Shown: piece after piece, positions 30,158-64,000 of the stretch
Layout of the letters: every line of letters starts with the position of its first letter
How positions within the stretch are numbered: position 1 is the first letter of the stretch
From: Crambe crambe
Taxonomy: Eukaryota; Porifera; Demospongiae; Poecilosclerida; Crambeidae
Length of the DNA: 64,000 nt
Direction: 5' to 3'
NCBI GenBank assembly: GCA_963924555.1
Contig: OZ004581.1
Location: forward strand, 3,224,001-3,288,000
Notes under the pieces: model-generated
Databases searched by the model: none
Seen by the model: only the letters and a program-made list of their open reading frames with translations
What the model was told of the DNA's origin: nothing
Made by a program: the position numbers and the translations under genes

Positions 30158-30931
30158 ATGGCCAAATCAATCAGTGATCGTATCGCATTTATTGAAGGGC
30201 TCGAACTGGCCGATTCTGCAGTATCTGAGGGAGTCAAAATTAGGACTCTAAAAGAGCAAGCTCCACCTGTAAGTGCAGACAATAAGAAAGAAGCTTATGT
30301 AGTTGGAGGATCTATTTATGCATTCACTGAAAATGTGAAAGGCCAGGCCAAGAAAGATATCATGAATGCCGCAAACCTTGCTCAACTCGCTGCCAATAAA
30401 AAATACGATCGTGAATCAAAGTCGAAAGAATGGTACCAGGTTTTTGAGACTGTTCTGGAAAATATTGGTTTTATTGTCGAAAGCTTTGCATTCAATGAGT
30501 ATGATAGTCATGGATCCTCGTTTACAATGGATAAAGCAGTCATCAGTCTATTGAGTGCAATAGCTACTGGTTCCAGTTTGCAAATCTTGACGGCTGCATT
30601 GAATTCCTTGTCTAAGATGGCCGATAGCAGTGGTCAAATCACACTCTTTGAAAGCCAGAGCTCAAAGGGTAAGATGGGGAATTTCCAAATAGGAGCTTGT
30701 GATCAGTCTCCCAGTGGTGATGTCAGCTTTGCCCTCGGGGCTTACTATTACAGCACTCATAAAAGCTCTCATCATGTTCTATTTGTCAAGTGGGGTCATA
30801 GTGATGTCAACTTCTATCAAAGCTCCACGAAAGTTGTTTTAAATTCGAGCATCTATGAACAAGTGAGGGATAAAATAATCAAGAAGCTGGGAGACAAAGC
30901 TAATACCAATATCGATTCAATTGAAATTTGA
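30158..30931 (+). CDS. Unrecognised intronless protein, paralogue 1 (257 aa)
   Basis: Start chosen at the first ATG (GAGAATGG, good context); the frame continues upstream only through TTG. No signal peptide, membrane segment or Cys pattern, so a soluble cytoplasmic protein is likely. Landmarks shared with paralogue 2 are ERIAF/DRIAF near residue 9, KGQAK near 57, ANKKY near 80, a WYQ motif near 94, MGNFQ(I/L)AACDQSP near 172, VSFALGA near 187 and a KLGD near the C-terminus. It has the look of a complete single-domain alpha/beta protein. I cannot name the family. Similar-length uncharacterised proteins may exist in microbes, but that is only an impression. It is intronless in a genome whose neighbours are spliced. 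Confidence 0.82.
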   Translation: MAKSISDRIAFIEGLELADSAVSEGVKIRTLKEQAPPVSADNKKEAYVVGGSIYAFTENVKGQAKKDIMNAANLAQLAANKKYDRESKSKEWYQVFETVLENIGFIVESFAFNEYDSHGSSFTMDKAVISLLSAIATGSSLQILTAALNSLSKMADSSGQITLFESQSSKGKMGNFQIGACDQSPSGDVSFALGAYYYSTHKSSHHVLFVKWGHSDVNFYQSSTKVVLNSSIYEQVRDKIIKKLGDKANTNIDSIEI

Positions 30932-31044: not shown

Positions 31045-31125
31045 TGTCGGTTATAAACTTATAAGCTCTCCTTGTCAGACACTAGCCAAGCGAAGTCTGT
31101 TCATTCTGCCACAATACGATTGAGA

Positions 31126-31890
31126 ATGGCCAAAACCACCAGTGAGCGCATTGCATTTGTTGAAGGGCTTGAACTATCGCATCCTCCGATACCTGACGGG
31201 TTCAAAATGAGGACCCAGTTGGAGCATCCTGTAGTAAGTGCAGACAATAAGAAAGAAGCTGATGTAGTTGCAGGATCCGTTGTTGCTTTCACTGATAAAG
31301 TGAAAGGCCAGGCCAAGCAAGATATCAAAAATGCCACACTCTTCGCTCAATTTACTGCCAACAAGAAGTACAATCGCCAATCATCCCCAAGAGAATGGTA
31401 TCAATTTTATGAGCATGTTCTGGAAACCATTGGTTTTACAGTCGAAAAGTTCGATTTCAACAAGTACGATAGCCATGAAACAGTTGGAAAAGCAGCCATT
31501 GATACTCTGCATGTAACAGCTACTGGCTCAAGTTTACAAGCTTTGACTTCTGCTTTGGATTCTATAGCAAAGATGGACGATCACAGTAGCCACGTCTCGA
31601 TCTTCAGTAGCCACACCACAACAGACAGAATGGGAAACTTCCAACTGGCTGCATGTGACCAATCACCCGATGGTGTTGTCAGCTTTGCCCTCGGGGCTTT
31701 CTATTTTCTCACTCACACTCATACTAAACGAATCCTAGGAATCAAGATCAGTCATCATAAACATACGGAGTTCTATCGAGGTGCATCAAAGGCTATCTTA
31801 AATGCGACTATTTTTGGACCATTAAGGCAGAAAATAGCAGAGAAACTTGGAGACTGCGCTGTCGCCTTTGTGGATTCTCTTGAAATCTGA
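31126..31890 (+). CDS. Unrecognised intronless protein, paralogue 2 (254 aa)
   Basis: Head-to-tail paralogue of the 257-aa gene, 194 bp after its stop. The ATG aligns exactly with that of paralogue 1; in-frame sequence upstream has only TTG. The proteins align end to end with a short deletion around residue 120 (paralogue 1 has GSSFTM where this has ETVG). The most constant parts are the N-terminal IAF.EGLEL, ADNKKEA, the MGNFQ..ACDQSP block and VSFALGA, so these are probably the functional core. His residues are enriched in the C-terminal third. No signal peptide or membrane segment. Intact frame and matching ends argue that both copies are in use. Confidence 0.82.
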   Translation: MAKTTSERIAFVEGLELSHPPIPDGFKMRTQLEHPVVSADNKKEADVVAGSVVAFTDKVKGQAKQDIKNATLFAQFTANKKYNRQSSPREWYQFYEHVLETIGFTVEKFDFNKYDSHETVGKAAIDTLHVTATGSSLQALTSALDSIAKMDDHSSHVSIFSSHTTTDRMGNFQLAACDQSPDGVVSFALGAFYFLTHTHTKRILGIKISHHKHTEFYRGASKAILNATIFGPLRQKIAEKLGDCAVAFVDSLEI

Positions 31891-33443: not shown

Positions 33444-34000
33444 TTAAGAAACCATGACGTCTTGTGGTCCTGCCACTGATTGGTAGACATGTTTTCCAAA
33501 TTGTTGGTATGCCCTGAGGAAAAGAAGAAGAAAGAAGAAAAACATGGTTACTGTAACTGTCACAAAAAGTTCTACCATTATCGGTTATCCTGTATAAGAA
33601 ATGGATTAAGGTTTTATAAGCTTTCTTCACACTTCAAACGCTTTCTACTATTATGCACGTTAGTAGGTGTGTGGCCATGAAAAGTGGTGGGTGTGGCTAG
33701 GAGAGTGAGATATGGCCACACAATGAAAAAAAAAAAAAGAGTAAACAATGACAATAACAAAAATAATAATACTTGGAACATACTTTGTTGGACTGGGAAT
33801 GCGTCTCAACTCCATGTCTATTCCAGTGGTCTCATCCACACTCCATGCCAGCCAAGAGTCAGGATAGAGTACAGAGTTCACCACTCTCACCAGCGAGCCC
33901 TTATTCAGGGTCATGTCCTTACTATCAGATGGGGTGTGGTCAACATCCACTCGGATGTAGAATGATTCAAACTCAAACTGATCTCGAATAGACTTGTACT
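33444..34000 (-). CDS. Exons 20-21 of the chimeric gene: MAGUK-type SH3 and C-terminus
   Basis: ESFYIRVDVD, LVRVVNSVLY and SWLAWSVDE match the SH3 that follows PDZ in MAGUK/CARMA/DLG5/ZO proteins (F-Y/F-I-R start, D-T/S-L-Y, W-L-A). In those proteins a guanylate-kinase-like domain follows. Here a strong acceptor (TTTTCCTCAG) joins a 70-nt last exon that ends after 22 codons, so that domain is absent. Confidence 0.72.
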
Positions 34001-37000
34001 CTGCAGAGAGTGATAAAATAATGATTAGACTATTGTATGCATATCATGAAGGTGGTTCACATGTCACAAGGAAAAAAAAATTAATGTGCTAGACCACGAT
34101 CAACCGACTCATGGTTCAAGGTCAATTTCTACGTAAGTGCCATGCATATATCACAAACAGACTAGCTAAGGACGGTCAGGAGCACGAAGACAGAACAAGC
34201 AAGATGCCAGAGATAACACTGTAGTAAGCCTCTAGAGGCTAGTGAAGAGAGCAACAAGAGACTTCAGTAAGCCCTCTAGGTCTGGAATTTGATACCTTAC
34301 CCGATATTTAGTGATAATTCTGTAGTTCACATTAAATTTTATCACAGAATTGACAGCTGATATTATGTATGATGATGCATGCAAATGTCTGACTTACTGG
34401 CAGCATTTTGGGTGACTTTCAACTGCAATGTGTCCTTGGCCTGGGCGATGATTTCAGAAGCTTCATAGTGACTCATTTCCACAGCACTGCGACCAGCAAT
34501 CTCCAATATCCGGTCACCGACTTGAAGCTCTTTTCTCCCTGCCTTCACTTCAGAGACGAACAGACCCACAATATTGCCTCCGATGAATTTAAAACCGAAT
34601 CCTTTGTCCGCAGCAGAGTAGCGGAGAGTCACACTCCGCTTAAATCTGTAGAGTCAGCATGTATAAATGAATAATTCAGCAGTGCAATACACCAGAACTG
34701 GCAATTTAAAAATAATTCATACACAGTGGGTCTTGCCTATAGATGTACTAAATTCTCTATTGTTTGCTCCTGATAGCCCCAACTTCCATTCATTTGGGTT
34801 GGTAAAGGGTAGTCAAATAAAAAAGCCAGACATTTACACCCGAGAGATATTGAACCTCTCAATGCAACAAAGGACGGTCTAAAAGTACCACATAATTTAT
34901 ACTCCAAAAGAGGACAACCTCTCTATAAAAGACAAAGGATGGGTACCAAATGTGTTGTACATTATATGTATCTTACCCTGATCCTTTCATGCTGAGAAGA
35001 TTAGAGACTTTCATGGTGATCGAGTCCACGAGGTGTTGCTCGCTCCTCCCGGTGGACACATCCAGGGAGCTGTACCCAATGGATGAGTTAATGGACGAGG
35101 TGGTGGGAGGCGGAGACACACGGGGAACGATGCGTACTGATGTCCCCTTCACTGCTTCCGTTTGAAGGAGTTCTGCGAAATCATCTGGTCCCTTACCACG
35201 AACAGGAACATCTCCAATCTAAAGCATAATAAATATTTTTACATACAATTTTATGTATGCTATAAAAGACATACGTACATAATTATATGTCAATGCATGT
35301 ATTATGTTATGTTAACATGTAGGTACATATACTGTACATACAAAACATACATGAAACATGCAGTGACACATGCATGTACACACATGCTCATGTATGTACA
35401 CACATGCTCATGCATGTAACATACATGTAGATATGCACACACTACAGATCAAATGTTATTGTACCTGTATGATTCTATCGCCAGCTTTAAATATGACACT
35501 GGTGGCATCACTTTGGGGAGGGTAGTCGTCAGTCACTTGGAACAGACACTCGTACTGAAGAGCACTGGCAACTGCAGGAAAAATACAGAAGATAATGCAC
35601 AGCATCAAAGTTTAAATAGTCATACTTAATGCTGTAGGACATATGTATGAACTCATTATATGAACTTACAAGTGTAGCCAGCTTCAGGATCAATGTTAAT
35701 GTTGACAGCAGAGCCATCAAAACTGGACATGTTCAATGAATAAAGTCCAGAAAGTGCTAAGCTGGCACTGTTTCTCCTAGCAACCTCTTGCTCGTAATCA
35801 TTATCTTTATCAAAGGACTGCAAAAAAAAAAAAAAAAAAAAAAAGTTCATTATGCAGTACATCACATTATTACTGTCCTATTTGGAGCACACCCTTCCAC
35901 TCCAATCTTACCATGGAAACAGCTGAGTCAGCAGCATCAGAATAAGTGGAGATGAGTATTCTTCTGGGGCCAGGGCCTCCTCTTCTGGTGGGTACCACAG
36001 GACGCAGGGGAGGCAATTGGTCATCCGTCTCTGCAATGGAGGTGCGACTGTGGATCTCCACAGGAAGAGACAACTCATCATCTGAATAGGAAGATTATTA
36101 TTAAAAATGCTGCATCACTATACCACTATGATGAACATACATACATGCTAATACATGTACATACATGCACTACACATATAATACAAGTAACAGCACATGT
36201 AAAGGATCAGTGAGCCATGAATACATGTATTACAATACATGTATTATGTAACAAACTACACATGTACATGCTAATACATACATGCTATAAATACCTATAA
36301 TATGTACTACACATGCAATATGCATGCACATTCTGTAAAGTCAACTAATTATCACATGAACACATTATTATGTAAGTACTATACATGCTATAGGTAATAC
36401 AGAACACTGTCAACCTTACCATCTCTGACGGACTGTGGCTGGCGTTGGAGCTTATTGGTTGAGCTGCGTCTTCTTTGACCCGTGGTCTCATTCAGCCCAC
36501 CACTGCTCTCCGGCTGCAAACCGGATGCCTTTTCTGGGTCTGGGGCGGGGACAGGACTGGCGGGTTGGATTGTGGGACTGGAGGGGACCTGTTGCTCCCT
36601 CTCCTCCTCAAACTTTGTGCGCTGGTCCATCTTGTGGATGCGAATAAGACGAGACATGATCTTCATTCCTCCATCTGGTGAATAATGATACAAATCTAAT
36701 AGTCTACTGTATCTTCATTGAAATTGAGAGGGGGCGTAATCCCTACATTGAGTGCTGGCTATTAATGTGTATCTATACTGCAATGGTATTATCAATTGTA
36801 TTCAATTTGACTGACCTTCAGCATCAGAAGAATTGTCAAGTCTACTGAGTGCCTTGCGCGCCTCCTTGCTGGCAAGCACTGACTGCTTGTCTTCATCGCT
36901 ACGTGGGGTGATCTCCAATAGGTCAACCAGCACCTGCAGAATCTCAGCCAGTTTGCTGTGGTTGTGCTCCTCACAAAGACTCTGTGCTTTACGCAGCTAC

Positions 37001-37079
<79 letters not shown>

Positions 37080-40000
37080 AAAATCAAGTATTGTACAGTT
37101 TGACTCCAATTCAAGGACCATATTTTAAATTGTGCCAAGTGCATTCTATATTCACATCAACTTCATATCAACAAGCAAGCAGCTGACCACGTACTGATTT
37201 CTTATTACTCACATACATACATACATACATACATACATACATACATACATACATACATACATACCTGTTCAGTATTGATTGACAACATGCTTGGCAACTG
37301 GAGAGTGGCAAAGACGAGTTCCTCAATGCCCAAGCGACAGGAACCCAAAAGCAGGTTATAAGAAGTCGATGGGATATTGTCATAATAACCAGACGAGTAT
37401 GCATTCCCCCCTATCCCACCTGTCCCTTCAGGTCCCATCCCTTCCATACTACCCCCCACCTCTGGGAAGTAGCTGGGAAAGTTCTGGACGAGGTACTGGA
37501 AGAGAAGGTCACTGTTATACTGGGCGTTGGCATAGTAGGTGAAGTCAGTCTGGGCAACCACTTGTCCGGAAGACATGATCACTTCAAGAGTCACATTCTC
37601 AGGAATATCGTGCTCTGGAAAAAAATATGAAGATGAATACCATGAACTGTGTACAATACAAATCATAACACTGTTCACATGAAAGCCACATGCATGGTTT
37701 TAGGTGAAACACCCACTATAGTTATGCTTCCAAGGAAAACAACACAATATCTAAAATATTTGGTATGAAATACGATTAATCCCCGACACCTCAGCTTTTT
37801 TTTTGTCCAAATTTTACCTCATCAGCAAAGCATATCACACAAATATACTATCACATGATGGGGGTAGTCCCACTTGTCAATTTTGAAGATGTGGTACATA
37901 CTTTAGTTTGGTTAATTAATGCAATTATTGACTCTGTTTTTGTAAGCTGCACTATAGGGTATTTTTTTGGTAGAGCTTGGTAAGAATTCCAGTAAAGCAA
38001 CCTTGACTAAGATAATGGTCTACCATAATTATGGTACATAATAATTATGTCATTGTATGCTTTAGATATCACCTCTGTGGACTAAATAATGCACACCTTA
38101 GCATATTGAATTTTTGAGGAGATCTTCACAGATATGCACACTACATGCTACATACATACATACATATTACGAAATACCGAGCTGCATGGGCTCGCAGACA
38201 CCTCTAGACTAGTTGCTTAGATGATTTAGGAACCATATGAATTGACGGAGACTTAGTTATTCCAGGAAAAACTTGATTCCAGCTAATGTAAACAATTATC
38301 AGGAACATAGCACATGGAACTTCCACAATATCATTGCCAAAGGAACCTACCCATACAGCTTATAATTGACTTGTGTATATAGATCGGCCAGACATACTTA
38401 TGTTACAATATGTACCATGATGACAGCTATCATGGGAATTTGACCATGTTGACAAATAAATACAAAGGCTATAGAAGCTGAAATAAGATGTTTAAATGTC
38501 CTGGTGTCAGGCAGGTAGAGCACTGCATGGCCAATAACCAAAGAGTTACATGTAAGTTGTTCAAATCTATCAGTGAAGTTTTTGCTTCAAAAGGTTAAGT
38601 ACTAGGATTGTATAAATCATGGTGACTATTTTGTCCAGTATCGCATCTCACATGATATTTCCTGTATGTATTTGATTTCAGCCTGGGTTAATATAATTAT
38701 TATTATTATTATAACCAACAATGGATAATATCACCACATCTGGAACCATAACTTCATCAGATCCATGAGGTCATGTGATCATGTGCACTTCCTGTTCTCA
38801 TATGGATTTTGTAATATAATCATACTTGGTAGTATATATAATTTGTGTACTTCCAGTTCTTAGAGGTGCATTGGTTGATATATATTATATATATATTATT
38901 TTTTTGCATAAAGCTATGCATGTTATTGAAAATTGGTGATGGCTCATCTAGTGGCCAAAATGGCTGAATGGTATACAGTGAAAATGCTGTACATTATAAT
39001 ATATACGTAGTACGTAGGTAATTGATTCTTACTTGGTATGATGGTCGTGAGAGTCATGGGGTTCTCCTCCAGGGCCTCCACTTGATGAATGTACTCCGGT
39101 CGCTGCTGAGAGTTGAAGCTCAGCCATTTCCTTCCCGGGGGAAGCTGTCCCCCGAACACGAGGGCAAGCTTACCACCACCCTGAAAGACAGACAGAGAAA
39201 GGGAGAGTTTGAAACACAACTAGTAATAACCAACTGTCCTCAAAACACAAGGGCAAGCTTAGCTTATCACAGGTCTGAAAGACAGATAGAGAAAAGACTT
39301 TAAAAACACTACTGGTAACTTCTACCCAAGACACAAGGGCAAGCTTATTTATCACCATCCTGACTTAGTAAGTTTTACTTTAATCACAAATGCATCATAA
39401 TGACCTCAAAAGGAAAGGTCACTTATGTACTGGATGTTCGCAATGTTGTCATATCCACTATGCCATCATAGCAACTAACCTTTTGAGACTATATTGTTAA
39501 CAACGAGGACATGCAAAGGTCATCTAGTTGTACTACAACACAGAACACTTCAGTTCCACTAATCACAATCGACCAGCTTCTTAAAACAGTGAAAATAAAC
39601 CACTCACACACACACGTCTAATTAAAGCTAAAGCATAATTCTAATCATGCAGTGTTCTTAGCCTAATGAGCAGAAAGAGAAATCGCGTGCCAACATCTTA
39701 ATCCCACCAAAAGCAACATGGAACTACACACAAAAGACTATGTAGATGTTCTCTAAATAGGGTGTAGCTTGAACCACAGAATATGGATGCTAATAAGAAC
39801 CATGCTAATTGGAAATTCTGGCTTCAATCCTTAGCCAGCTTGTGCTAATGCAAATCCCATATATGTACGTAACAAATCACTACATCCCATGTCACACAAC
39901 TGTCATCACCTCATTCCTGCAAGCACATCATTCATGCAAGCACATACACCCTCAGTTTCATCCCCAGCATATTATATCAGTCACATGATGAAGAGCCCCT

Positions 40001-43000
40001 TCCCCTCCTTCGAAATGTGCTTAATAATAATGCCAAATAAGTACATATCTCCTCCACTCCATATCATTAAAAAAAAAAAAAAAAAATCTACCTGTTTGAA
40101 ACCCTAGATGGCAATAGTTATGAGAACTGAAACACATACCTAGGCACCACTAAAGAGATCATAAAAGGAAGGAGATAACAGTTGTGAATGAGCAAGTCAC
40201 ACACTCATTATCCAATTAAGGTCCTATGAAACCTGAAACCTATCAAGCTTACTGTTACATGTATTACTAAAATTAATAGTAAATACGGAGCCAGCTTGCC
40301 CTACTGTCTCTTTTTTAATTCCAATTTATGGCGCACCTCAGGTTTAACATCACAACAGTATGGTATTAAACCTGAGGTAGTGATGTAAATTTACATATGT
40401 GACAGTCGAGGGTAGCTAGAAATCAAATGTTATCCACGTTTTAGTCAAAGTTTACTTTTGTCATGACTGATATGCTTTACAATAAAAATTTCTGCCTTTC
40501 GAACAAAAAGTAGAAAGCGTGAATAACGTTTGATTTCTACCCTCGACTGTCTATATTATAGAGAATGTTACGTGCACCATAAAAAATAGACTAATAATTA
40601 TTCTGAGTAGTTAAGAGCCACAACACGCACACTACATGCATGTATAAATGTGACGTAACACATAATTCAACAAGGATCATGACTTGACTGAGTGAGTGTC
40701 CATTAACAAACAGGTCATGCTATAGTACAATTCTGATAATTATCATAATCATGTCATTAAGGCATCATAACTGGAAAACCCAATTCTATAGTTGGGCATT
40801 AAATGGAATTATCCCTACTGTATAGGTGTGTACCATGAAAAATTTTTAAAATCATGTTCAATTGAACATGTACAAAAAATTAATACGCTGTACTTAAGAG
40901 TAAGCTGTAATGAGAAGATTATTTCCCCTTGAATCATCTATCATACTGGACACGTGTCATGACCATGACAACTAAAAATAATGTAATTCCAGTTGAAGGA
41001 CAAGATAGAGTGCATGGTATTTGAACTATCGGCAATGGCTACATGTGTTGCGTTACACACAAAGCCCACATTCGGCTCTAAGAGCATTCAGCAAAACATG
41101 AAACGCCATACATTAACACCAATACATGATCATATTAACAGCAGGTTTGTTTTGATACCAAACTGTATGAAATTCCATCCCTCAAAGCAGAAAAATATAT
41201 AGTGTTACTTCAATATGGAACTACTACATCAAAACATGTCCCACACTAAATGTCTATTAGAGTTCACTTGACATGTAGAACTAGCTGGCTGATATAACTC
41301 TTATAGATAAGCACAGTAGATTGAATGTCCATGGCATGGCATTTTCCGACTTTGCTGGACTTGCATGAATGGCAGAAAGATATGAGTTTTATTACGCACA
41401 TGGAACACTAATTAATAGAAGCTCTGCAAGCTAAACTCTGATATGTCTGAGACTATTTTAGAGTTCAAGTTTCTCACGCTCTTAATATATTTTTCCTATG
41501 GAGCTATGCCCTGTTTTGCCACACGTGTATTATGCAAGTCTGCAGAAGTCAGGAAATTTGGATCAATATGGATGAACGGCCCCCCACTCTTTAATCGCAT
41601 TCTTTTTTAATTCTTTTTTATTATAATTATATAAGAATACGCGAAATTAAAAAAGAATGCGATTAGAGAGTGGGGGCCGTTCATCCATATTGATCCAGAA
41701 ATTTCAGTGGACGTTCGATTGACTCTGCCATCGAAAATATGATCAAGAATCTTACAGCCTCATATGCGCATAGTATGTACCATCCATTGGACCTTTAAAA
41801 GATGGAATTTTAGCAGTTACATACTTGGAGAGTACAACTTTGCCACCCACAGTAAATTACAATACATAGACTTAGCCCTAGATAGAGCCTTGTACATAGA
41901 ACTGAAATCTGTAGATATGATATGTATCACCCCTAGACCTAAAGAGGAGAATTTTGGCACACAAGACAGTTACTTAAGAGCACAACCTTGCCATCCACAG
42001 TACACTAATGCATAAACTTACCCTTCCTACAATGCTCTGATTATAATAAGCATTATCTATTTGTAAGGGGGCACAAGTCTGGAGCACACAATGCAGTTAC
42101 TTATAAGTACAAAAACTTACCATAATCATTCATTTTTGTCATTAATTTTCTATGTAGCTAAAAATTATACTCACCTCAAGTGGGCTCTGGTCAGGATAGG
42201 TCTTCACCTCCAGTAGGGCTGGAATTCCCATAGTAATGAAGAAAATAATGATAAATAGATAAGTACTAGCTGAAAAATAGAGCTAGAATCACTCTAAAAG
42301 TGCTATTTCTCTATCTACAGCACTACACACTACAGTCAGTGTTTCTAAGTGACTGCCCTGGCAAAAATGAGCCACCTGTGACAGTCAGGCTGCCTATAAA
42401 CACTAGCATTATTCATATTGGAACTGCAACTAAGCTATTCTATAACAAGGTTATGCACTACAAAGGCTTCGCAACGCGTAAAGTCACGCATACCAGACCA
42501 CATACAAGGCAATACAGACACTATGGTAACAGTATACTGCTTATAGTGCAGCCTAATCGCTGCCAAATACTATTCATGACCAGTAGTTGACACTATTAAT
42601 TGCAACTACATGCAATGAATTCAGTTGTGGGAGCTTTGTAGAATGGAGCTGGTGCTTCAGGTCAGTTCTGTTGACACAAAGCCTCTAAAGAATGTTATGC
42701 AACTTACTTGCTACTGTAACAATATAATCCTTGGATATGCCCATGCAAGGCTACAAGGTTGTAGTGAAGCAAACTGCAGTGTTATTTACTAACTTGAATG
42801 TTGACATAATGTCCTCACATCTTCACTCTGACAGGATATTTGACAGGCTATCGTACCTAAAATAATACATTTTGGCCACCAGTCACTATACGAGTATTCC
42901 TGATAAATGGTCCCGATGAATCATGAAACATTACGGTGCAATTTCCTCTGAAGAGTGGAGATCTCTCTATTAAGGAAAATAAGGACAGAAATAGCCGGTC

Positions 43001-46000: not shown

Positions 46001-48688
46001 CTACCACGAAGCTCGGAAGTATAGGAAACTAAATTCTAGGAAAGAATTCTTACTGTGCTGTAAGTAACTAACACACAGCCAGAGCTCACTTCAATAACTT
46101 ACAGAGTTCCATAATATGTAAGTCAATAACTTACAGAGTTCCATAATCTGTAAGTCAACGTTTGTGGGTGGGAGGAATATTTATGGTTTTAAAACCTGCA
46201 CTTTGAAGAAATGGACCCTATGCATCTTGAATGCGCTGGGAATCTAGCTGCTATGATGACTCAGCACTTCACTTAGCACCATGTCTGCTATGAATATGAT
46301 TTATCACTAACCTATTTCCTTGTGGAACAATATAGACATTCCACGCATACTTTGGTGGGAAAATGTTTGACCTCTATGTATTGTATACGTCTGAACTATT
46401 GGATCTATAGTGCCTTAACTACGTAAAATGACACTATGACTATGATCAGTACCACTCCTCTATGGGTACATATAACCAGACACTGTCAACACAAGACTTA
46501 GAGCTGCATACAAGATTTGTCTGGCTGTGACGTTGCATATTGTTAGGTACATGTCCTGTCAATGTCCAGTCAAATGCTAGGACATCACATCAGCTAGGAT
46601 GCTACCAATTCCCTCTGTGACTGTATCTTCGCTCACACTAAGGTGCTGATTCAAGTGGATTTCACAGTGGTCATTATTGTTAAGTGTTGTCATTTTCACA
46701 CCTAGTCTACTGACTGCATGCTAATGATTTATTGTTGTTGTTGTTGTTGTTTTTTGTTGTTGTTGCTGTTTCTTACCTTGTTGTTGAGGAGGCTGCTGCA
46801 TTGGGGGCAGGACCTGGTTCATCACATGATGGTGAGTCTAAACAAAAATTAGAAAAAATCAAAGATCATTAAAATAATTACATGCAAGGAGCTATGCATG
46901 ATGGAATAGTTAAGTTGTTGTTGTTGTTGTTATTGTTGTTGTTTGCTTCAATAACTGCATACATATTTCATTGATCACATCTGGAAGATAATGTAAGGAG
47001 TCTCTAGAGGAGCTACAAGTCTATACAATTTGTACAAGGAATAGGCACCAGTATAAATAATATGTAGGACTCTGGGATAGAAGAGAGCATTTTGTGTTGA
47101 CAGGTGGTCACATTCTATCATATATATATATAAGAACCAACCAACATTCAAACAAGCCACTATCAGTAGATAATTCAACAGATGTGGTCCAGTTATTAGT
47201 ACTACAGTTAAACCTAATAACTACAGTTAAACCTAAACCTGCCTATTGCAGGAACAAGTGGCTTAAAATAGGGAGGTGGTCTCCTTGCATGATGGTGGAG
47301 TGGCCTTAATAGAGAGGTGATCTCTTTAGGGAGCTGGAATAGGTGTTGTTGGGACATGGTGGAGTGGAAGATGGTCTCTTTAGGGAGGTAGAAATAGCAG
47401 AAATAGGTGCTGATGTGATATAAGACATGGCAGAGTGACTAGGTGGACGCACAGCAATTAGCTTACCAGAAGTGTCAAAATTGTATCATGTGACTGTTGC
47501 ATGATTAGTATCATGTGACTATATAGTTGCATTCCAGAATCCTACCCTGGTCTTATATACACCTATACTATCACTTTAATTTGTTACTTGTTCCTGGTGT
47601 TTTTTTTTTCTTCTGGTTTTATACAAATGAAAGAGAATAGTTCTCCAATGGCAATGATTATTCATCAGCAAATCAAGGCTTGGAAGTGTTGAGCTATACT
47701 TGGAGGTTGAGGATGCAGATGAATCTGTCTCATCATAATCTTTTTTAAGGCATTTTTCGTCACTGGAGCAATGTTCAGCAGTATCATGACTTTATTACTC
47801 TTGTTCATATGTCTGTCTAGTCGTGGGCTTGTATTTTATGGTACATGTGTGTGTTGTGTTCATATGTTTGTGATAATAGGAGGAAAACACGACTAGTACT
47901 CAAACAATTAAGAAACAGAACAATTGAATATTATTGACAGCATTTTTCACTTAAGTAATAGTCCATAGAACATTAGATAAACATAAAATGTAGTAATGAT
48001 TTCTACCTATTACATTATGTATGAGAGGAAAATCCAATGACCATAGCCTATAATTAGTAGATTTTGGAGACAGCTTGTCCTGCTATTTAATATAAAGCAA
48101 AGCACAATTTCACTCACATGCCTGACACATATATACACTAATTATAATCAGCCAAGCTAAGAATACAAACGATAAATTTCCACTGGAATGTTCTACCGCA
48201 TATGCACCCAACCTGCAACTCTTGCTTGGGGAGTTGCACTAGGAACTGAAAGCACTTCATATTGTAAACTATATAGTTAAAACTGGCAACTAACAGTCAA
48301 CATATTTTGATCTTACACTCACCGAAAAACCTAAACATGAATACTCATTTAGCACTTTGCCCCTTAACTTCATACACAGCATTACATTATGATTCAGCAT
48401 TCCGATTTCATTTTTTCTTTTTCCGTACATTCCAAGGCATCATCTTTCAGTTGTTACTACCTCTTGATCTATATTTTCGACGGCAGTATTGCAGTTGCTA
48501 TAGCAATTGCCCGCTTCACTAACCTAGCAAAGCAATATTTCACCTGGCAACCAAGTATGGAATAAGGGTTCACCTAATTGTGTCCGGGATTGCATTCCCG
48601 TACAGCTCATCTATGTTTCCAGGGCTACAATTCCAAAGCCACATCGACTTCAGATAACACAGCTAGTCTTGAGTCCACAATGATGGGA

Positions 48689-48745
<57 letters not shown>

Positions 48746-51700
48746 GCCATCATTTTATGCAAGCAAGTGGTGGATCCACACAGAAGACATTGAAGTGGTC
48801 CTCACAGGAACTGAAAACAAAATTCTTAACTACATACAGTAGATACTTTGGAAAGGAATTTTGTCCTGAAAGGAATTTTGTCCTTCAGCAATTGAATCTA
48901 GATTGAGTGGAGTCAGGATTCCTAACCATTTTGAGGAAATAACCAACTGAATTTCAGCATCCTTTGACAGCCATTTTGGTGCACAATTTATATTATGCTC
49001 TATAGAGATAATGATCGCTGTTGGCATGGTAAAATTGAAAAAAAAAATGCTCTGTACAGTACTTTGCAGGAACTGGATAGCATTCCATGTATATTATAGG
49101 TCTGTAGGTTCTCTTTAAGCTTGTACGCTTGATATGTACTGGTCATCACCCTTTTATACGAGTCAAAAGGTATGTATGTATGTATGTATGTATGTATGTA
49201 TGTATGTATGTATGTAGTACATTCATTATAGACATTAATTACCATGTCAACTGGGGGACTTGGATTGGGTTGGAAATTCGGTTCAGGAGAGTAGGAAGGT
49301 GTGGAACTCTGCACCCAGTCATTCCCTATTATCCCATCTGCTGAAGTGGGAGGGACCTACACATACAGATATTATGAGGCAGTGATCAATATAGTTTATC
49401 AATTAAGACCAATTAAGACCTCCTATATACCATACAATATAGTTTATCAATTAAGACCAATTAAGACCTCCTATATACCATACAAAATTTTACACATACT
49501 ATTCTAACAAGAATTTTACATTTTGGCTGCTAATTGGCATATTATGTATACCGTATAGTGCGATATTTTCGTAGGTAAAAAATTTCGTGGATGTCGTGTT
49601 TTTGAAAAAAAATTGAATAAGGAATTTAATATTTGCAAAACCACGAAAAAAATTTACCCACGAAAATATTGCACTATACAGTATGACAGACCAAGTAAAA
49701 CAATAAAAAGGTCCACCAATAATTATACCCTTGAGTTGGTAAAGGTTGATTACTGTACAAGTACTGTCATATGGATGCTGTACCTGAAGCACAGAGCCAT
49801 AAGAGTAAGGTCCTCCACCAGGTGACATGCTACCATTCATGGAGTAAGGACTGGTCTGGTTGTCATAACCTGCATGAAAACATACTTAGCAATTGTGTAG
49901 CCAATAATTAGAACAAACCAGTTGACCTGACAGTTCAAACACCTGCTACACTCCTTTATCAACACCAAATTGCAGTTTTGCCGGGACAGACTAATAGGAA
50001 AATAGCTCGGCCATACTGTAGTTTTGCTGGGACATACTAATAGGAAAATAGCTCGGCCATACTGCAGTTTTGCTGGGACATACTAATAGGAAAATAGCTC
50101 GGCCATACTGCAGTTTTGCTGGGACAGACCAATACACCATTTGTCCTTTGTGGAGGATTGGAGGTCATTTTGTATACATATGTACCCTTCTTTTTTTCTT
50201 TTTTTTTGCCCTCACTTGGAGTATTCTTTACTGGGGGATTCCACTAAATAATGTATTATACATATTTTATGTAAGAAGCTTACTTGCTGCATCACTGACG
50301 ATTTGATTGCTGACTCCAGGACTTGGGTTGCCTCCCCCTCCATTCAGGTAGCCAGTGTAAGGAGAAGCTGACTGAGATGTTGATTCCGATGGACTTCCGT
50401 CGATGTCAAGGTCAATCACTCCACCACCTAAACATTGAGATGGGATGGTTATAATAAATGTGTTTTCCACGAAGCGCAACATTTCAGAGCTGGTAAAAGG
50501 TCAGCTAGCTAGGAAGTATGTAAGTACATTCGATCCAGGATATGGTTCTTTAACTATCAAATTGAGCAAAAATGTCCTTCCACAAAGCACAACAAAAGGT
50601 CAGCAAGCTAGCAAGACTACACATTCTTAAATTGGTAAAGGGTCGTCAATATACATACTCGGCTAGAGCTAGCTCAGGCTTCTCTTGAGTTGGTAAAGGG
50701 TCATCTGATATACATACCAGGATTGCTGTAAGGGCTGTGGTTGCTGTAAGGAGAAGTGTTCTCCACCTTGACATGAGCACTTCCAGGGGAAGGCATGCTC
50801 ATGGGGGAGGGATTGTAGCTTTCACTCGACTTCATCTTAAGAGACTGCTGATGATTGGCCAGCACTTCCATAGAAGGGGAATAGCCCCCCTGGTACATGG
50901 AAGTGGCTGGGAGGAACTGGGAAGTGGGCGGTGCCATGCCACTTGATGTGGACATATACCCATTTCCAAGGTTGGGCTGAGGATTGTAGTAAGACTGCAA
51001 GGAATAACAAGAAGGCAGGTAGGAGTTTTTAATTTGTACAAGGATGACCTTTACTGCACGGAATGAGGATTACATTGGTTTACAATGTATACAAGGATCC
51101 ACAGAAACCAGATCCTTATCCATGCAGCAGGGCCGGAGGAAGTGGTCAGGCAGGTCCGATTTTTTGAATTGATTAGGCCAAACAGGGTTTATTTCAAGGG
51201 CCCCCACCCCACCCAAACGATGGCTTGTCCCCCCTAGGAATTAGCTAGCTTGAATTCCACATACTGGTCCCCTCAAATTTTTTTAACTATGGCATTTGAC
51301 CCCCCTCGAGCAAATAAACCCTGACAGCTATAGCACACAATGTGTGCCATTCAGGAAAATCTTAGATTGCAATTGGAAAGGCACAACTAGGGTTGAAGGA
51401 AAGTCAGAAATATTGTAGAAATACTGCACACTTTTTATTGCATGCAATATACCCACACATACTATGGTGACACCATGGCCTGTAAATCATAGATGTTATC
51501 CACCTATTCAAACCAGCCGGAAATTGACAGTACAGTGGATTGCAGGTTGCTTGACACTAGTACTTCAGCCACCAAGGTGACATGGACCAATCAGATATAC
51601 CCACACATACTATGGTGACAATGTTATACACCTATTCTAACCAGCCGGAAATTGACAGTAACACTAGTACCAAGGTCACATGGACCAATCAGATTTGCAG

Positions 51701-54700
51701 GCAATGATGTTAGCATGAATCTGATAGGTCCATGTGACCTTGCTGGCTGAATAAGCAACCTGCAATCTACAGTATCTGCTTAATGGCTTCAGTGGTCAGG
51801 TGATTAAATACATATATACCCTTGAGATCATTTTGTAAAGGTGGTTGACCACCAATGATTATAGCATTCACCCAAGATAGTAGTTAGCTCGTGTGTACCA
51901 TGAGCTAATCAACACACACACACTTCTTGCAATTCGGGCATAGCACTTGAGATATCATGTAAAACATGATTTAAATGATATCCAATTTTGCTCCATAAGA
52001 CGTACCCCTTTCTCAAGCAATAACATACAACTATCAGGATATTTTTGTAGAGGGGGGAATGACCATGTGGCCATTCTACTTGTTTTTGGAGAACTTCTTT
52101 TTCCTACCATTTTCATTTTCATGAGTATCAGCAAATGCCAATGTTGTGTATTGAGTTAAAGAATTGGACTTTAGTCACTTTAGTTATTGTTTTTAACCTT
52201 GGGTGGGAAAATCCCAGGTCTATGAAACCCTGACTAGCAGTGTTTCCCCCAGTATACTAAGTGCAGGGCGGGCCACCCTGTTTGGATATAGAACTTCAAA
52301 GAAAGTGGGCTGGGTCTATGGCACTAATTAAATTATATTCTCATGAATAATATACTTAAGCACCCTGTTTGAAAGTACAGCTAGGGAAGACTCTGGACTA
52401 GCATGACAAAATTATTAGCACTGACTGAGATTAAACACCTGCTATACTTCTTTATACTGGGTATCAGACTGTTGTTTAGAAGTGCCCACTGTTGCCACTA
52501 CCTTATTTTTACACACCCAGGAGCAGTGCATACATCTACATACTTACTGTAACAGTTCCATTGGGGTAACCTCCAGTTGGTTTATTCACATACAACTGGA
52601 CCTCTGCAGAAACAAAACAAAACAAATATATCTATCCATTGCAATTCCGGATGTGTGCAAGTTGGTGGACCTATATATACAGCACACCAGTCTCCACTCT
52701 GTTGATAGATCGAACCCTTACATGTGATCACCACTCTGATATCAAACCCTGGCAGTATTGGCACACATGCATGATAGTTGACAAATCACGATGCAATACC
52801 TCCAAGTGTATGTTTTGATCATGATCAATATAAAATAATATAATTATATAGCTGGGCTGAAAGATATACCATGCTAAGCAAAATAGCTGAAATAGGTACA
52901 CAGATCTGTATTCTACTTGGAAATGTCATGTGATACATTATAGTACGCATGACTACCTCTAGCATCATGTTCCTAATGAGCATGTCAATCATTGTTACCT
53001 GGCAACTGTGCATGTGAACAGCTGGCCCTTATGTACACACAGTGTGTACACATGCATGCACATGCCAGTACGTCATTTATCTGTGCATGCATGCTTGTCT
53101 AAACTCTGCACAGTCTTGGTGTGTGTACGTCAAAGTGTTATGTGAGCACCGTTTTTTGATCGGCACCAGTGGTATTTAGTTTCACTGCATTGATACCATA
53201 GATATGCTGACGTGACTATGCAATTAATATACCTAGGTTGTCAATGCTCACTGCACAAGAGTAGCCATCTTATTAATAATCTACATGAACATGGAATGGA
53301 AACCCTCCTGAACCCCTCAAGCTCAATAATTTTGAACAAGGAACCCCTCAATATGCTGAATATGGAAACCTTCAATATGCTGAACCAAACATAAAACCCT
53401 CTTTAAAATGCTAGGGAACCCCTCGATAAACCCCCCCCCCCCCCCGTATGCTAAACATGGAACCCACAATAATTTGATGAACATAGGCATGCATGTACAT
53501 GTAGTGCCATGTAATAAATGAAAACAGAGGCACATCTCTATACATTCATGTACATATGATATACATACTGTATCCAGCAATGATTGATTGCAGAAGTTGA
53601 CATTCATATTTGTGACCTTCTCTGAGAAAACCCAGAAGTCAGCCAAAAATTTATCTATATCTCTACAGCTCATAGAATGCTCCAGGAGCATTTAGAAAAG
53701 GCAACTTGAACATAATTATTACATCCGTTTGCTACTAAGAAGTGAGTGGGTGGGGTTCGAAGTTTCTCGCCTCCTGGGGTTACAGAGCGACTAAAGCCCT
53801 GAGAAAGTACCAAAGGTCAGCGCAGATAGCATTAACATTTCCAAAGTGTATAAGCTGGAAAGCCTACCTCGGCATTCTCCGTGCACAAGCCTTCATGGCT
53901 GACTAGCTAGCTTTAGCACTTTATTTGAAACCTTTCTACTTTATTCGAAGCTCTGAAACTTGGTCAGAGTTTAGTTTAAGGATCATAAGGGTTAAAAATA
54001 ATATGGCTCACTAAAATTATGAAAATTTATATTTTTGGCTAAGTGCCGGATTTTCCCAGAATAGGTCACATTTATGATAAGATGAAACCTGATAAGCAGG
54101 AAACTCTTTGTGGTCTATTGAACTTGAGAAATTTCGCAAATCCACACAATAGTTCCCTTCTTCTCACACAATAGTATCCCCTCTCCCTCCCCCTCACCCA
54201 CCACCACCACACACACTATATAGAACCAATTGCCATCCAATAGTGTATACATGTGGCCTCGTCCCCCCAGGCCCTCCTTTTTAATTATGATTGTGGAGGG
54301 CCTGATACGCAAAGTCATAGAACTAGACTTAATTGGGTGTGGGCAGTGCATGAGAGCATTATGACCTTGCCCACACATTTGGGCTATGGACTGGACTGAC
54401 TACAGGATCGACCTAAAGGCACCAGGTGTTCAAAAGAATTTCTGCTGTTTTGCTACAACAAAATGACCAATTCGCTATGACCATACAACCAAGGACTTAC
54501 TAACACTCGTGAAGAATTCTGAGACCGATCTATGTAAGGGATGAACAAAATCTAGACTGCTTGATAGCTTACTATCTAATGATAAGCAGCTCAAATACTA
54601 TCTGCTGCAAGGCTAGCAAAGAATTCAGCTCAACACCCCTTCTCTTTTCTCAGGCCTGGCCATGGGGTAGTATACACAAATTCGTCATGGTGACATATGC

Positions 54701-56519
54701 AATAGAATGTGTTTCCTTGGACACACCCACGCTATGGGTTTCTATGGTTTCTATGAAATTTTCACCTCCACAATCAAGGAGGGCCTGGGGATGAGGCTAT
54801 ATAGGTGCATTTAGCTACATAGGTGTAATAATCTGATTGTCGGTAAGAAGTGTTAACTGCATAGAGTTCTGGTCTTTGGGGAAATTGCTAAATGCTAACA
54901 CTAACTAACATGCGAACAACCATCTCTCTCTATTCCTTACAGGGTTCATCATACTCAGGTGGTGGACAAAAGAAATTCTTTTGAGCACACCCATACATAA
55001 GCTAGCATGATAGAGTGTTGCCCTTGATTGCTCAGGCTTACAATGTATGCTTACCTTGCACTAAGGCAGGAGTGGCTTGGAAGACTCTACTTCTGTACTG
55101 GGTTCCTTCCTTGATGCTCTCTGTCTTGACCTCCTCCAATCCTGGAAAGGCTCGTGGGAGACCTTTGCGCAGCATGCATGGAGCATCAACCTGTGGAGTG
55201 AGAACATGTGGAGTGAGGACATGTGGAATGAGGGCATGTGGAGTGAGGGCATGTGGAGTGAGGACATGTGGAGTGAGGACATGTGGAGTGAGGGCATGTG
55301 GAGTGAGGACATGTGGAGTGAGGGCATGTGGAGTGAGGACATGTGGAGTGAGGACATGTGGAATGGAGCGAAAATAAGTGGAATGGAGTAAAAATGCAGG
55401 ATGGAGTGATAACATGCAGAGCAGAATACGTGAAATAAGGAGTGAGAACATGGTTGAGTGAGAACATGTGGACTGAACATGCAGGTATAAGTCATCAATT
55501 GAGTGGTTTGAGGTGGTCTATCAAGTGACATAGTCGTACTACTCACTTGGTCTGAACTGCGTGGCTTTTCCTTGAACCATTCTTCAGCAATGTTGTGCCA
55601 CTCTGTCAGTTCAAACTTGCCAATGGTGATGTCTATCCAGCGAGCTTGTTTCTGATAAGGAGATACATACAATGTGAAGCTGAATATCAATTACGTATGT
55701 AAATTGTTCATCAGCATATGCAATGTACTGTTGTCATGGAAAAGGGTATGTAATTAATATAAGGGTCAAAGTTCACCAATAAGAAAAAATATTGGAATAA
55801 TCATGGAATGAAATTACTTTCATTTGCAATACCAAAACATGAATGCAACATTTTGAAAGTGAAAGCCAATTGTGTGCTTTTTTAAAATGGCATTTATACG
55901 ACATTCACTACCTATAAAGGGACAATCACACCAAATTTTTTGGTATGATTAAATTAGGGATGTTGTCATGCATGATGTCGTACTATCATCTAGTTTTACA
56001 TCTATGGTACTATTCCAAGAATGCTCAGGGCATCAGAAGTAACAAAGGCTTCTGGGGCACAGAAGAGAAGGCTGTCTGATCGATCATCAGAGCAACTAGT
56101 GGAGAGGCAACCAGTACTGTGCTATGCTCTGTGCGCTGTTCTTTCTTTGGGAATGCCAAGTTTCTGCAGCAATGGAGAAATGAGGAGCAGCAGCAAAACT
56201 ATCGCTAGCAACATAGCTGTACTAGCACTGGTTATGAAACCACGCCCATTAATTATGACAATCATGTAGCGGAAATATCCAAGTGAATATCCTAATTCGA
56301 AGAAAAAGGAAGCAAACTTACACTGTTTTCCAGCTTTTGCACTATAAACTGTGCCATCTTGCCTCTCTTCCTAGTGCCCGCCCATGATCTCCAGGCCTTC
56401 AGCCAGTCCTGCATCATAGGAGTGCCACCCAACTGGTTGCCATGGTGCTGGTGTGGCTGCTGAGTCAACATGGGTGGCTGTTGAGGGGAGTGATGGGACG
56501 GGAAGGTCATTACAGACAT
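33444..56519 (-). CDS. Chimeric transcription-factor/scaffold protein: winged helix, IPT/TIG, PDZ-PDZ-SH3 (1118 aa, 21 exons)
   Basis: Exons on the minus strand, 5' to 3': 56519-56322, 55651-55547, 55190-55055, 52603-52548, 50994-50718, 50427-50284, 49869-49784, 49356-49243, 46837-46777, 42218-42175, 39180-39033, 37614-37265, 36996-36816, 36674-36420, 36081-35912, 35817-35670, 35571-35465, 35218-34977, 34645-34398, 34000-33784, 33513-33444. All introns are GT-AG, mostly GTAAG or GTATGT, and every phase agrees; the sum is 3357 nt. Domains: winged helix about 40-140, low-complexity activation-type region 147-392, IPT/TIG about 393-485, helical region 560-635, basic linker 635-815, degenerate PDZ about 815-885, PDZ 941-1022, SH3 1024-1095. 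The start is the first in-frame ATG after a stop. I know no family with this plan. The exon chain is seen; transcription as one mRNA is inferred. Confidence 0.75.
34398..34645 (-). CDS. Exon 19 of the chimeric gene: canonical PDZ domain
   Basis: One exon carries one full PDZ domain: RSVTLRYS strand, GFGF carboxylate loop, GLFVSEV, a GDRILEIAG turn, HYEASEIIAQA alpha-B helix with its leading His (class I-type position), and LQLKVTQ. This is a clean, conserved domain and should bind C-terminal peptides. Confidence 0.85.
34977..35817 (-). CDS. Exons 16-18 of the chimeric gene: degenerate PDZ domain
   Basis: Residues about 815-885: SVIFKAGDRIIQIGDVPVRG matches the PDZ GDRI-x-x-x-x-x-x-x-x core and the following DDFAELLQ and SVRIVPR match the alpha-B helix and last strand. 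The expected GLGF-type carboxylate loop is not obvious (ALQYECLFQV in its place), so peptide binding may be weak or altered. A Ser-rich linker leads to the next domain. Confidence 0.5.
35912..36996 (-). CDS. Exons 13-15 of the chimeric gene: helical and basic linker
   Basis: Exon 13 (LRKAQSLCEEHNHSKLAEIL and following) is helix-rich and faintly ankyrin/TPR-like, but one unit is too little to call. Exon 14 has a charged KFEEEREQQ helix, Pro-rich sequence and QRRRSSTNK, a basic patch with a possible kinase site and nuclear-signal character. Exon 15 has PTRRGGPGPRR. No known domain. Confidence 0.6.
37003..37076. repeat. (GA)n microsatellite forming the pyrimidine tract of exon 13 acceptor
   Basis: On the gene strand this is about 36 CT units running to within 6 nt of the CTGTAG acceptor at 36997. 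No other pyrimidine tract is present, so the microsatellite itself must act as one. Confidence 0.85.
37212..37264. repeat. (CATA)n microsatellite starting at the exon 12 donor
   Basis: On the gene strand exon 12 ends CAG and the intron opens GTATGTATGTATG, continuing as about 13 GTAT units. Each unit is itself a good donor core (GTATGT), so many in-register donor choices exist. Confidence 0.85.
37265..42218 (-). CDS. Exons 10-12 of the chimeric gene: IPT/TIG domain and Gly-rich tail
   Basis: EVKTYPDQSPLEGGGKLALV starts an Ig-like IPT/TIG fold: P-x-x-GG-x-x-hydrophobic-x-G, then WLSF, a run to a TTIIP turn, then ENVTLEV and DFTYY closing strands. CAMTA, EBF and Rel-type factors carry such a domain; CAMTA looks closest by eye. 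Exon 12 continues with a Gly/Met-rich stretch and a helical CRLGIEELVFATLQL segment. The domain is split by introns at residues 407 and 456. Confidence 0.65.
38500..38580 (+). mobile_element. Possible degenerate tRNA-derived SINE head (intron 11)
   Basis: AGGCAGGTAGAGCACTG resembles an A-box region, AATAACCAAAGAGTTAC an anticodon-arm region and TTGTTCAAATCT a weakened B-box, at tRNA-like spacing. Too decayed for a tRNA gene. Confidence 0.3.
40401..40551. mobile_element. MITE-like hairpin in intron 10
   Basis: Arms GACAGTCGAGGGTAG and CTACCCTCGACTGTC with continued pairing inward (AAATCAAATGTTATCCACG against CGTGAATAACGTTTGATTT). About 151 bp. Confidence 0.65.
41559..41697. mobile_element. 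MITE-like hairpin in intron 9-10 with 6-bp target duplication
   Basis: 139 bp, ends TGGATCAATATGGATGAACG and its reverse complement, flanked on both sides by GAAATT (41553-41558, 41698-41703). Arms pair over about 55 bp through AAAAAAGAATGCGATT. The match is nearly perfect, suggesting recent insertion. Confidence 0.7.
44195..44344. mobile_element. Hairpin element in intron 9
   Basis: 150 bp. GCAGTGATCTTGCAA at the left pairs with TTGCAAGATCACTGC at the right, with long inner pairing (CCAGAACAGCAAAACCAAAA). No frame. Confidence 0.65.
44752..44870 (+). repeat. Dispersed repeat family R1, copy 1
   Basis: Core GGATATAGAACTTCAAAGAA, then GTGGGCTGGGTCTATGGCA and CACCCTGTTTGAAAGTAC. Further copies are at 52253-52385 (same strand) and 45640-45745 (opposite strand), all inside introns of the chimeric gene. 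Confidence 0.7.
45640..45745 (-). repeat. Dispersed repeat family R1, copy 2 (inverted)
   Basis: Reverse-strand copy (TGCCATAGACCCAGCCCA and AACAGGGTCCTTAAGTATTA), about 800 bp from copy 1, in the same intron. Confidence 0.65.
46085..46165. repeat. Short tandem duplication
   Basis: ATAACTTACAGAGTTCCATA followed by ATATGTAAGTCA or ATCTGTAAGTCA, present twice in a row with one substitution. Confidence 0.6.
46777..52603 (-). CDS. Exons 4-9 of the chimeric gene: activation-type low-complexity region
   Basis: Residues 147-392 are rich in Ser, Pro, Gly, Tyr, Asn and Gln, with repeated SPYSN and NPSP words, an acidic DLDIDGSPSES stretch and a Gln/Pro end (MQQPPQQQ). HVKVENT near residue 242 matches the psi-K-x-E sumoylation motif. 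This is typical of a transactivation or phase-separating region. Small exons (56-277 nt) and phase-compatible borders would allow alternative splicing. Confidence 0.65.
48692..48742. repeat. (GA)n microsatellite in intron 8
   Basis: About 25 GA units, no relation to a splice site. Confidence 0.85.
49170..49216. repeat. (TATG)n microsatellite just after the exon 8 donor
   Basis: About 11 units, starting 27 nt into intron 8 on the gene strand. Confidence 0.85.
49551..49681. mobile_element. Mariner-type MITE with TA duplication, intron 7
   Basis: 131 bp. Ends CCGTATAGTGCGATATTTTCG and a matching reverse complement CGAAAATATTGCACTATACAG, each next to TA (49549-49550, 49682-49683). Second-level pairing of AAAAAATTTCGTGG arms. 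Confidence 0.7.
49973..50126. repeat. Tandem repeat of about 46 bp, four units
   Basis: Unit: CAGTTTTGCTGGGACATACT then AATAGGAAAATAGCTCGGCC. Lies in intron 6. A shorter two-unit repeat of about 50 bp sits at 49390-49490 (TTTATCAATTAAGACCAATT). Confidence 0.75.
51430..51780. repeat. Nested direct and inverted repeats in intron 4
   Basis: ACCCACACATACTATGGTGA to GACCAATCAGAT occurs twice (51448-51595, 51599-51695), and a third part lies inverted at 51718-51770 (ATCTGATAGGTCCATGTGAC). It suggests a foldback element that partly duplicated. Confidence 0.55.
52253..52385 (+). repeat. Dispersed repeat family R1, copy 3
   Basis: Near-identical to 44752-44870 over GGCCACCCTGTTTGGATATA and beyond, with a small insertion (AATTAAATT). 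Confidence 0.7.
53430..54820. other. Intron 3 sequence without features of note
   Basis: Holds a C15 run near 53430 and two GGCCTCGTCCCC/GGGATGAGGC-type matches (54252, 54785) to a dispersed repeat also seen at 33052. No coding exon fits the phase here. Confidence 0.45.
55055..56519 (-). CDS. Exons 1-3 of the chimeric gene: ETS/IRF-like winged-helix region
   Basis: After a Pro/Gln/His-rich start, residues about 40-140 read QFIVQKLENS, then RWID, GKFEL, EWHNIAEEWF, LRKGLPRAF, EEVKTES and YRSRVFQ. In ETS domains the order is QFLLELL, a Trp, EFKL, VARRW, LSRGLR and a final YRF. IRF domains share the Trp spacing and an EEVK...VYR end. The first half fits ETS spacing and the second half resembles IRF. 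The ETS arginine pair is only partly kept (RKGLPR for RGLR), so DNA contact may be altered. A basic TRKRGK precedes the fold and may be a nuclear signal. A divergent winged helix is the best call; exact family uncertain. Confidence 0.5.
55193..55400. repeat. 15-bp minisatellite abutting the exon 3 acceptor
   Basis: About a dozen units of GTGGAGTGAGGACAT and variants (GAGGGCAT, GAGAACAT). On the gene strand the last unit ends CTCCACAG, the acceptor at 55191-55192; all other units end CTCCACAT, so one base change makes the splice site. Confidence 0.8.

Positions 56520-62761: not shown

Positions 62762-64000
<1,239 letters not shown>

Follow-up and report, generated by a model that had tools for sequence, protein, structure and literature searches.

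Gene model and exon chain

On the minus strand of the window, the whole stretch of 64,000 nucleotides of Crambe crambe DNA that was analysed, a chain of 21 exons runs from 56519 to 33444. The exons, assembled by script from three reading frames, comprise 3,357 nt and encode a protein of 1,118 aa, with the gene start at 56519 and a TAA stop that ends at 33444. They lie at 56519-56322, 55651-55547 and 55190-55055 (exons 1-3), 52603-52548, 50994-50718 and 50427-50284 (exons 4-6), 49869-49784, 49356-49243 and 46837-46777 (exons 7-9), 42218-42175, 39180-39033 and 37614-37265 (exons 10-12), 36996-36816, 36674-36420 and 36081-35912 (exons 13-15), 35817-35670, 35571-35465 and 35218-34977 (exons 16-18), and 34645-34398, 34000-33784 and 33513-33444 (exons 19-21). 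All 20 introns are GT-AG and the phases are consistent throughout. The initial annotation had claimed a phase-perfect chain of 21 exons, which was rebuilt here with identical ends and returned by a gene finder as one gene of 252 bits; as a gene model, the chain is genuine.

Introns 12 to 17 measure 268, 141, 338, 94, 98 and 246 bp, and introns 3, 8, 9 and 10 are 2.4-4.6 kb long. Hairpin-like inverted repeats, 97-100% complementary, were found in intron 10 (41559-41697), and further hairpin-like repeats in intron 9 (44192-45732), where those at 44192-44347 are 91% complementary. These repeats are perhaps small transposable elements. In intron 2, a tandem repeat at 55200-55400 extends up to the exon 3 acceptor and would read as (HMSSL/HMPSL)n in one frame.

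The gene finder was home-made and not trained on the gene region; its codon log-odds were derived from 30 long ORFs (16,040 codons) lying outside 33-57 kb, and its splice matrices were written from general knowledge. It predicted a single 22-exon gene that included all 21 exons and differed from the model in the start Met (56510), the acceptor of exon 10 (42269) and an additional candidate in-frame exon of 57 nt (42022..42078, minus strand), which was proposed by the gene finder only. As controls, the opposite strand gave 30 bits and 20 Markov shuffles gave at most 11.8 bits, while six further strand-regions of the window, two of which doubled as codon background, gave 38, 5, 3, 0, 120 and 16 bits. 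The 120-bit control is the plus strand of 24.5-32.3 kb, with two intronless ORFs that are both in the training set.

Each exon was also compared with length-matched open AG..GT pseudo-exons. The coding score was reached by at most 17.4% of the pseudo-exons for 18 of the 21 exons, and exons 13-17, which bridge both halves of the protein, score as coding, with pseudo-exons reaching their scores in 11.4, 1.0, 1.2, 4.9 and 5.1% of cases, respectively. Exons 1, 9 and 10, matched by 46, 31 and 27% of pseudo-exons, look no better than chance as coding sequence. Exon 10 is a weak exon of 44 nt (42175..42218, minus strand), with an acceptor of 3.7 bits that is matched by 16.6% of background AG sites; its donor was retained, and another acceptor chosen, in 15 of the 15 gene-finder settings with a gene cost of -6 or heavier.

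The C-terminal PDZ-PDZ-SH3 block

The tail of the protein is a PDZ-PDZ-SH3 block of the ZO/DLG5/CARMA type without a guanylate kinase, encoded on the minus strand. A linker in exons 15-16 (35670..36081) leads into PDZ1 (aa about 806-895; exons 16-18, 34977..35817), followed by PDZ2 (aa about 944-1022; exon 19, 34398..34645), a MAGUK-type SH3 (aa about 1023-1095; exon 20, 33784..34000), and a C-terminal tail with the TAA stop (exon 21, 33444..33513). Pfam searches of the whole protein gave PDZ (3e-11) and PDZ_6 (1.3e-8), with two stretches each. PDZ1 was matched by PDZ_6 with 34.9 bits in the whole protein (cut-off 27), and as a 72-aa piece alone with 23.9 bits (3.4e-5), below the cut-off; PDZ2, the PDZ match at 3e-11, was also recovered by a genome-wide PDZ search.

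A phmmer search of PDB with aa 939-1118 found 57 sequences at E<=0.01, mostly as PDZ-only alignments, including the top match, a DLG1 PDZ (6.9e-7). The ZO-1 sequences 3tsw (E 8.1e-7) and 3shw (1.4e-6) were aligned continuously over PDZ, linker and SH3. The likeness to ZO-1 PDZ3-SH3 is unbroken from PDZ2 through the linker to the SH3 and includes the SFYIR motif; unlike ZO-1, the sponge protein has no guanylate kinase and ends about 20 aa past the SH3. When the SH3 was searched alone, ZO-1 came first again (E 0.093) and SH3_2 reached 0.05, below the Pfam cut-off; the SH3 exon folded alone had a mean pLDDT of 49.6, an unreliable fold. For this end of the protein, a pair of PDZ domains and an SH3 of MAGUK type had been claimed, and the PDZ and PDZ_6 matches together with the ZO-1 PDZ-SH3 alignment uphold that claim.

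No guanylate-kinase match was found in the window, and the 11 matches of a genome-wide GUK search at E<=0.01 all lie elsewhere; Pfam likewise gave no CARD or TIR match in the protein. Of the features that define a MAGUK, the PDZ is present and the SH3 adjoining the last PDZ is recognised through its context, but the guanylate kinase is missing, and the protein thus falls outside the MAGUKs. To our knowledge, its front resembles no known MAGUK.

The N-terminal head and activation-type region

Exons 1-3 (55055..56519, minus strand; aa 1-146) contain the start codon and a basic, winged-helix-like region at aa about 41-146, with 20 K/R against 13 D/E and an RKRGK motif at aa 50. The sole Pfam match of this region at E<=10 was Ets, with E 0.0023 when searched alone and 0.061 within the whole protein. 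Its 18.6 bits fall short of the Pfam cut-off of 26.9. The match covers profile positions 2-49 of 81 and lies on exons 1-2 (aa 55-99), so that the likeness to ETS/IRF factors is a weak one to the first half of the Ets domain, with the recognition helix and wing unmatched. PDB sequences gave no match to aa 41-146 at E<=10.

Two family assignments of the head were tried and set aside. For ETS, an HMM built from nine ETS matches of the same genome scored 9.5 bits on the head, a value reached by 5 of 4,809 and 0 of 968 scored shuffles; despite this rarity, the match is only half-length and below the Pfam cut-off. For IRF, the segment PGLEEVKTESIKEG...RVF looked IRF2-like by eye, yet an HMM built from two IRFs of the same genome and PDB relatives scored it at shuffle level (284/991; 1,088/4,944), and no Pfam IRF match was obtained. 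In a cross-check of these models, the genome's own IRF against the ETS HMM was reached by 284 of 910 shuffles, and an ETS against the IRF HMM by 213 of 950, so that neither stood out. Separate ETS, IRF, NF-kappaB and CG-1 matches over the cut-off are present elsewhere in the genome, and its three IRF matches are all on contig C18.

The head is followed by an acidic region of activation type, rich in Ser, Pro, Gly, Gln, Asn and Tyr (aa 147-392; exons 4-9, 46777..52603, minus strand), in which P, S, T, G, Q, N and Y make up 69% of the residues and 14 D/E stand against 4 K/R. A SUMO-type motif, VKVE, lies at aa 240, and the protein has two such motifs in all.

The IPT/TIG-like middle region

Exons 10-12 (37265..42218, minus strand) encode a beta region at aa about 393-490 that is IPT/TIG-like by eye, with a GG turn, alternating strands and a final FTYY strand. 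No Pfam family matched it at E<=10. A TIG HMM built from 12 loci of the same genome gave a score that 265 of 1,000 shuffles equalled, and no score was obtained on the region with an HMM built from two NF-kappaB IPTs. Of three control pairs made up of true TIGs, however, two failed likewise and the third was weakly above shuffles (11/636 as high); the test thus has little power, and its failure does not refute an IPT. The domain labels of the initial annotation accordingly divide: the two PDZ domains and the PDZ-SH3 stand, whereas the winged helix is weak, with a sub-threshold half of Ets, and the IPT/TIG is seen by eye without profile support. With an Ets match of 18.6 bits over half the profile and an IPT label that sequence profiles do not back, the earlier description of the front as a transcription factor is not established.

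The final part of exon 12 through exon 14 (36420..37347, minus strand) encodes a helical-looking stretch that is ankyrin-like by eye (aa about 546-665). Ankyrin repeats were rejected here, as no Pfam family matched and 283 of 1,952 scored shuffles attained the consensus score. A BCAP-like DBB middle was likewise not supported, with no DBB profile match in the protein; the DBB family profile had 0 matches in the genome, and the control genomes likewise gave 0. The two matches of the RHD_dimer profile in the genome lie outside the gene, at C9:8017587-8018098.

In the adaptors BCAP, BANK1 and Dof the DBB has a TIG fold, and BCAP and BANK1 also have TIR and ankyrin parts. By analogy, the Crambe protein may resemble these adaptors in carrying an IPT/TIG-type dimerisation module within a signalling scaffold; it differs in having no TIR and no DBB profile match, and in the PDZ-PDZ-SH3 that replaces their unstructured tail. 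NF-kappaB, CAMTA and EBF combine a DNA-binding domain with an IPT, and their order, a DNA-binding-like head before an IPT-like fold, is similar by eye; but the head is a different one, the IPT-like region of the Crambe protein is invisible to profiles, and we know of no PDZ or SH3 in these factors. According to PMC7128310, the TIG of BCAP is a cytosolic dimerisation module without DNA binding, 8.6-14.8% identical to five transcription-factor TIGs. The premise that an IPT/TIG is a nuclear domain is contradicted by this example, and because the BCAP IPT/TIG is cytosolic, an IPT is no proof of a nuclear role.

The same example favours a rather unlikely alternative, in which one gene encodes a purely cytoplasmic adaptor: the IPT-like region would dimerise, the head would bind protein and the tail would scaffold membrane partners, with no nuclear role. 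The evidence for a single gene applies equally to such an adaptor, the BCAP TIG works in just this setting (PMC7128310), and all DNA-binding families are below the Pfam cut-off in the protein. It accounts less well for the basic head with RKRGK and weak Ets-type similarity, the activation-type region and the two SUMO-type motifs, and the silence of the DBB model in the genome also speaks against it, though control genomes are equally silent.

Continuity of the exon chain

The chain was probed by forcing a gene boundary every 100 bases and recording the cost in bits. Splits between exons 12 and 17 lost 9-32 bits. Exons 1-2 could be removed for 1 bit (cut between 56.4 and 55.5 kb), and forced breaks cost 4 bits in intron 3 (54.4-54.5 kb), 6 bits in intron 5 (50.5-50.7 kb) and 5-7 bits in intron 9 (42.3-43.9 kb). 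A scan of the minus strand for AATAAA and ATTAAA found neither of these two hexamers anywhere on the way from 39,384 to the stop codon; 33.0-50.0 kb holds 12 of them on the minus strand and 21 on the plus strand, and beyond the stop the first occur at 32803 and 32489. The initial annotation had seen exons 12-16 as the doubtful join. With introns of 94-338 bp, neither hexamer and the split cost given above, this part proved to be well joined, and the join of exons 12-17 is sounder than the joins of the front, owing to its short introns, the lack of both hexamers and its dearer splits. The winged-helix part (exons 1-3) is the least secure, and exons 1-2 are the most loosely attached.

The gene finder was run with 21 parameter settings. 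With a gene cost of -9 or heavier (12 settings), exons 1-21 formed one gene in seven; in the remainder, exons 3-21 without exon 7 were joined in four, and exons 1-3 were separated from exons 4-21 in one. Exons 10-21, with the other acceptor for exon 10, were one gene in all 15 settings with a cost of -6 or heavier, and in the five of these with a coding weight of 0.5, exons 1, 2 and 7 were dropped. At a gene cost of -3 the finder predicted 24-47 genes, separated exon 13 from exon 14 in two of three weights, and kept exons 11-21 intact in one of three; at a gene cost of 0 the region was tiled by 225-293 mini-genes, none bridging both halves.

That part of the chain is wrong is improbable. In this case exons 1 and 2, or the small exons 9 and 10, would be false, the true protein would have a different front, and the winged-helix or IPT labels would rest on mis-spliced sequence. 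The 1-bit removal of exons 1-2 and the poor showing of exons 1, 9 and 10 as coding sequence point in this direction, as do the shifts made by the gene finder (another start, another exon 10 acceptor and an added exon) and its dropping of exons 1, 2 and 7 at halved coding weight. They are opposed by the agreement of all phases and by the 18 of 21 exons whose coding scores few pseudo-exons reach.

The cheap splits in introns 3, 5 and 9 are also what two genes, or an operon-like pair, would leave, an alternative that we regard as somewhat unlikely. The break would fall after exon 9 or at exons 13/14. In the former case, one gene would consist of exons 1-9, ending where a read-through of exon 9 meets a stop at 46721, next to an AATAAA at 46733; the other would extend over 42231-33444, as the in-frame ATG at 42231, upstream of exon 10, could be the start of a separate gene, and the IPT-like region would still be joined to PDZ-PDZ-SH3. 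In the latter case, the read-through stop of exon 13 at 36802 and an ATG at 36666 would delimit a stand-alone PDZ-PDZ-SH3 gene, in line with the parting of these exons in two of three weights at a gene cost of -3. Spliced-leader operons, which are known in some animals, offer a precedent for an operon-like pair. Close-set genes have been taken for one at the Botryllus fuhc locus, which PMC3691228 describes as first reported as one gene and then found to be two, 227 bp apart. Opposing such a division, however, exons 10-21 were never separated in the 15 settings at a cost of -6 or heavier, the donor of exon 13, at 8.3 bits, ranks with the top 1.3% of background GT sites and precedes an intron of only 141 bp, and the hairpin-like repeats can account for the length of introns 9/10 without an intergenic region.

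Relatives in the genome and comparison with known proteins

Searches of the 143-Mb, 119-contig genome with aa 35-165, 390-663 and 824-1118 (E<=1; aa 166-389 and 664-823 were left out) gave 13 matches, all 13 to the gene described here. One collection of contigs (genome_contigs) was scanned with the whole protein, as six short peptides (62 stretches), and another (viral_contigs) with aa 939-1118 (12 stretches); no relative was confirmed among these 62 and 12 stretches, a silence that says little, since the collections are bacterial, archaeal and viral.

Inspection by eye of the GUK loci suggested MAGI (C5:602275), an LRGUK-like gene (C21:87576) and a PDZ-SH3-GUK gene of MPP type (C13), and the positions of PDZ and GUK matches suggest two MPP-like genes on C9 and a DLG gene on C14. 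No ZO/DLG5/CARMA gene with a GUK was seen among these 11 loci, an exon-level lower bound with C5:1587771 left out. Amphimedon has a CARD-PDZ-SH3-GUK protein that is placed as sister to DLG5, ZO and CARMA (PMC2859873). It is a sponge member of the PDZ-SH3 superclass that the Crambe protein resembles; the latter differs from it in having neither a CARD match nor a GUK. The domain combination was not described among the matches listed in a search of the open-access literature, and the PDZ-PDZ-SH3 tail with its odd front is probably a novel combination.

Proposed function of the protein

The explanation that we put forward, tentatively, is that one gene encodes a single protein of 1,118 aa, a dimeric scaffold anchored at the cell cortex with a latent regulatory head. 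The head would be a basic winged-helix-like module that binds nucleic acid or protein, followed by a long, presumably disordered region of activation type. The IPT-like Ig fold would dimerise the molecule, and the dimer would attach to membrane-associated partners through its PDZ and SH3 domains. Once the protein is released, the head could work in the nucleus or on some local complex. Of these steps, anchoring is the more likely and nuclear action the less certain; no DNA-binding family was found in the protein at the curated Pfam cut-off.

A stronger version of this explanation is unlikely. Here the single-copy gene would encode a dimeric DNA-binding regulator, in which a winged helix, an activation region and an IPT precede a ZO-like PDZ-PDZ-SH3 from which the guanylate kinase has been lost. 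If it were true, a DNA-binding regulator would carry its own junction anchor, and one molecule could relay the state of contact or polarity to transcription.

Should the join hold in RNA, the combination of domains would be new: a PDZ-SH3 unit of ZO type, freed from guanylate kinase, would stand behind about 800 regulator-like residues. Amphimedon has been reported to be without ZO, CASK and MPP5 (PMC2859873), and a sponge regulator anchored by a ZO-type unit would be relevant to the way in which junction scaffolds became tied to gene control in early animals. Even if exons 10-21 alone hold, they would still form an unusual scaffold.

Other features of the window and genome

Two neighbouring intronless ORFs on the minus strand, at 2737-6564 and 9426-13205 (1,275 and 1,259 aa), are closely alike; by eye they are rich in asparagine at the front and hydrophobic towards the C-terminus, and their sole match was a sub-threshold Chlam_PMP repeat. 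On the plus strand, tandem intronless ORFs of 288 and 277 aa (30065-30931 and 31057-31890) are clearly related and gave no Pfam match (E<=0.1 and E<=0.01). Also on the plus strand, the related Ala/Gly-rich ORFs at 16431-16913 and 24957-25817 have the segment GAITGVARAGEAMML in common, and the latter had no Pfam match at E<=0.01.

Elsewhere in the genome, a CG-1 (CAMTA-like) gene, L071 (C18:5435400-5439900), has IQ-like motifs after Ser/Thr-rich exons. Among its listed ORFs of at least 40 aa, no IPT or ankyrin exon was seen by eye, and a loss of IPT and ankyrin in this gene is possible. A very long (GA)n/(TC)n run occupies 62700-63200 of the window; CT runs recur across the inspected loci, and one of them is the tract before exon 13.
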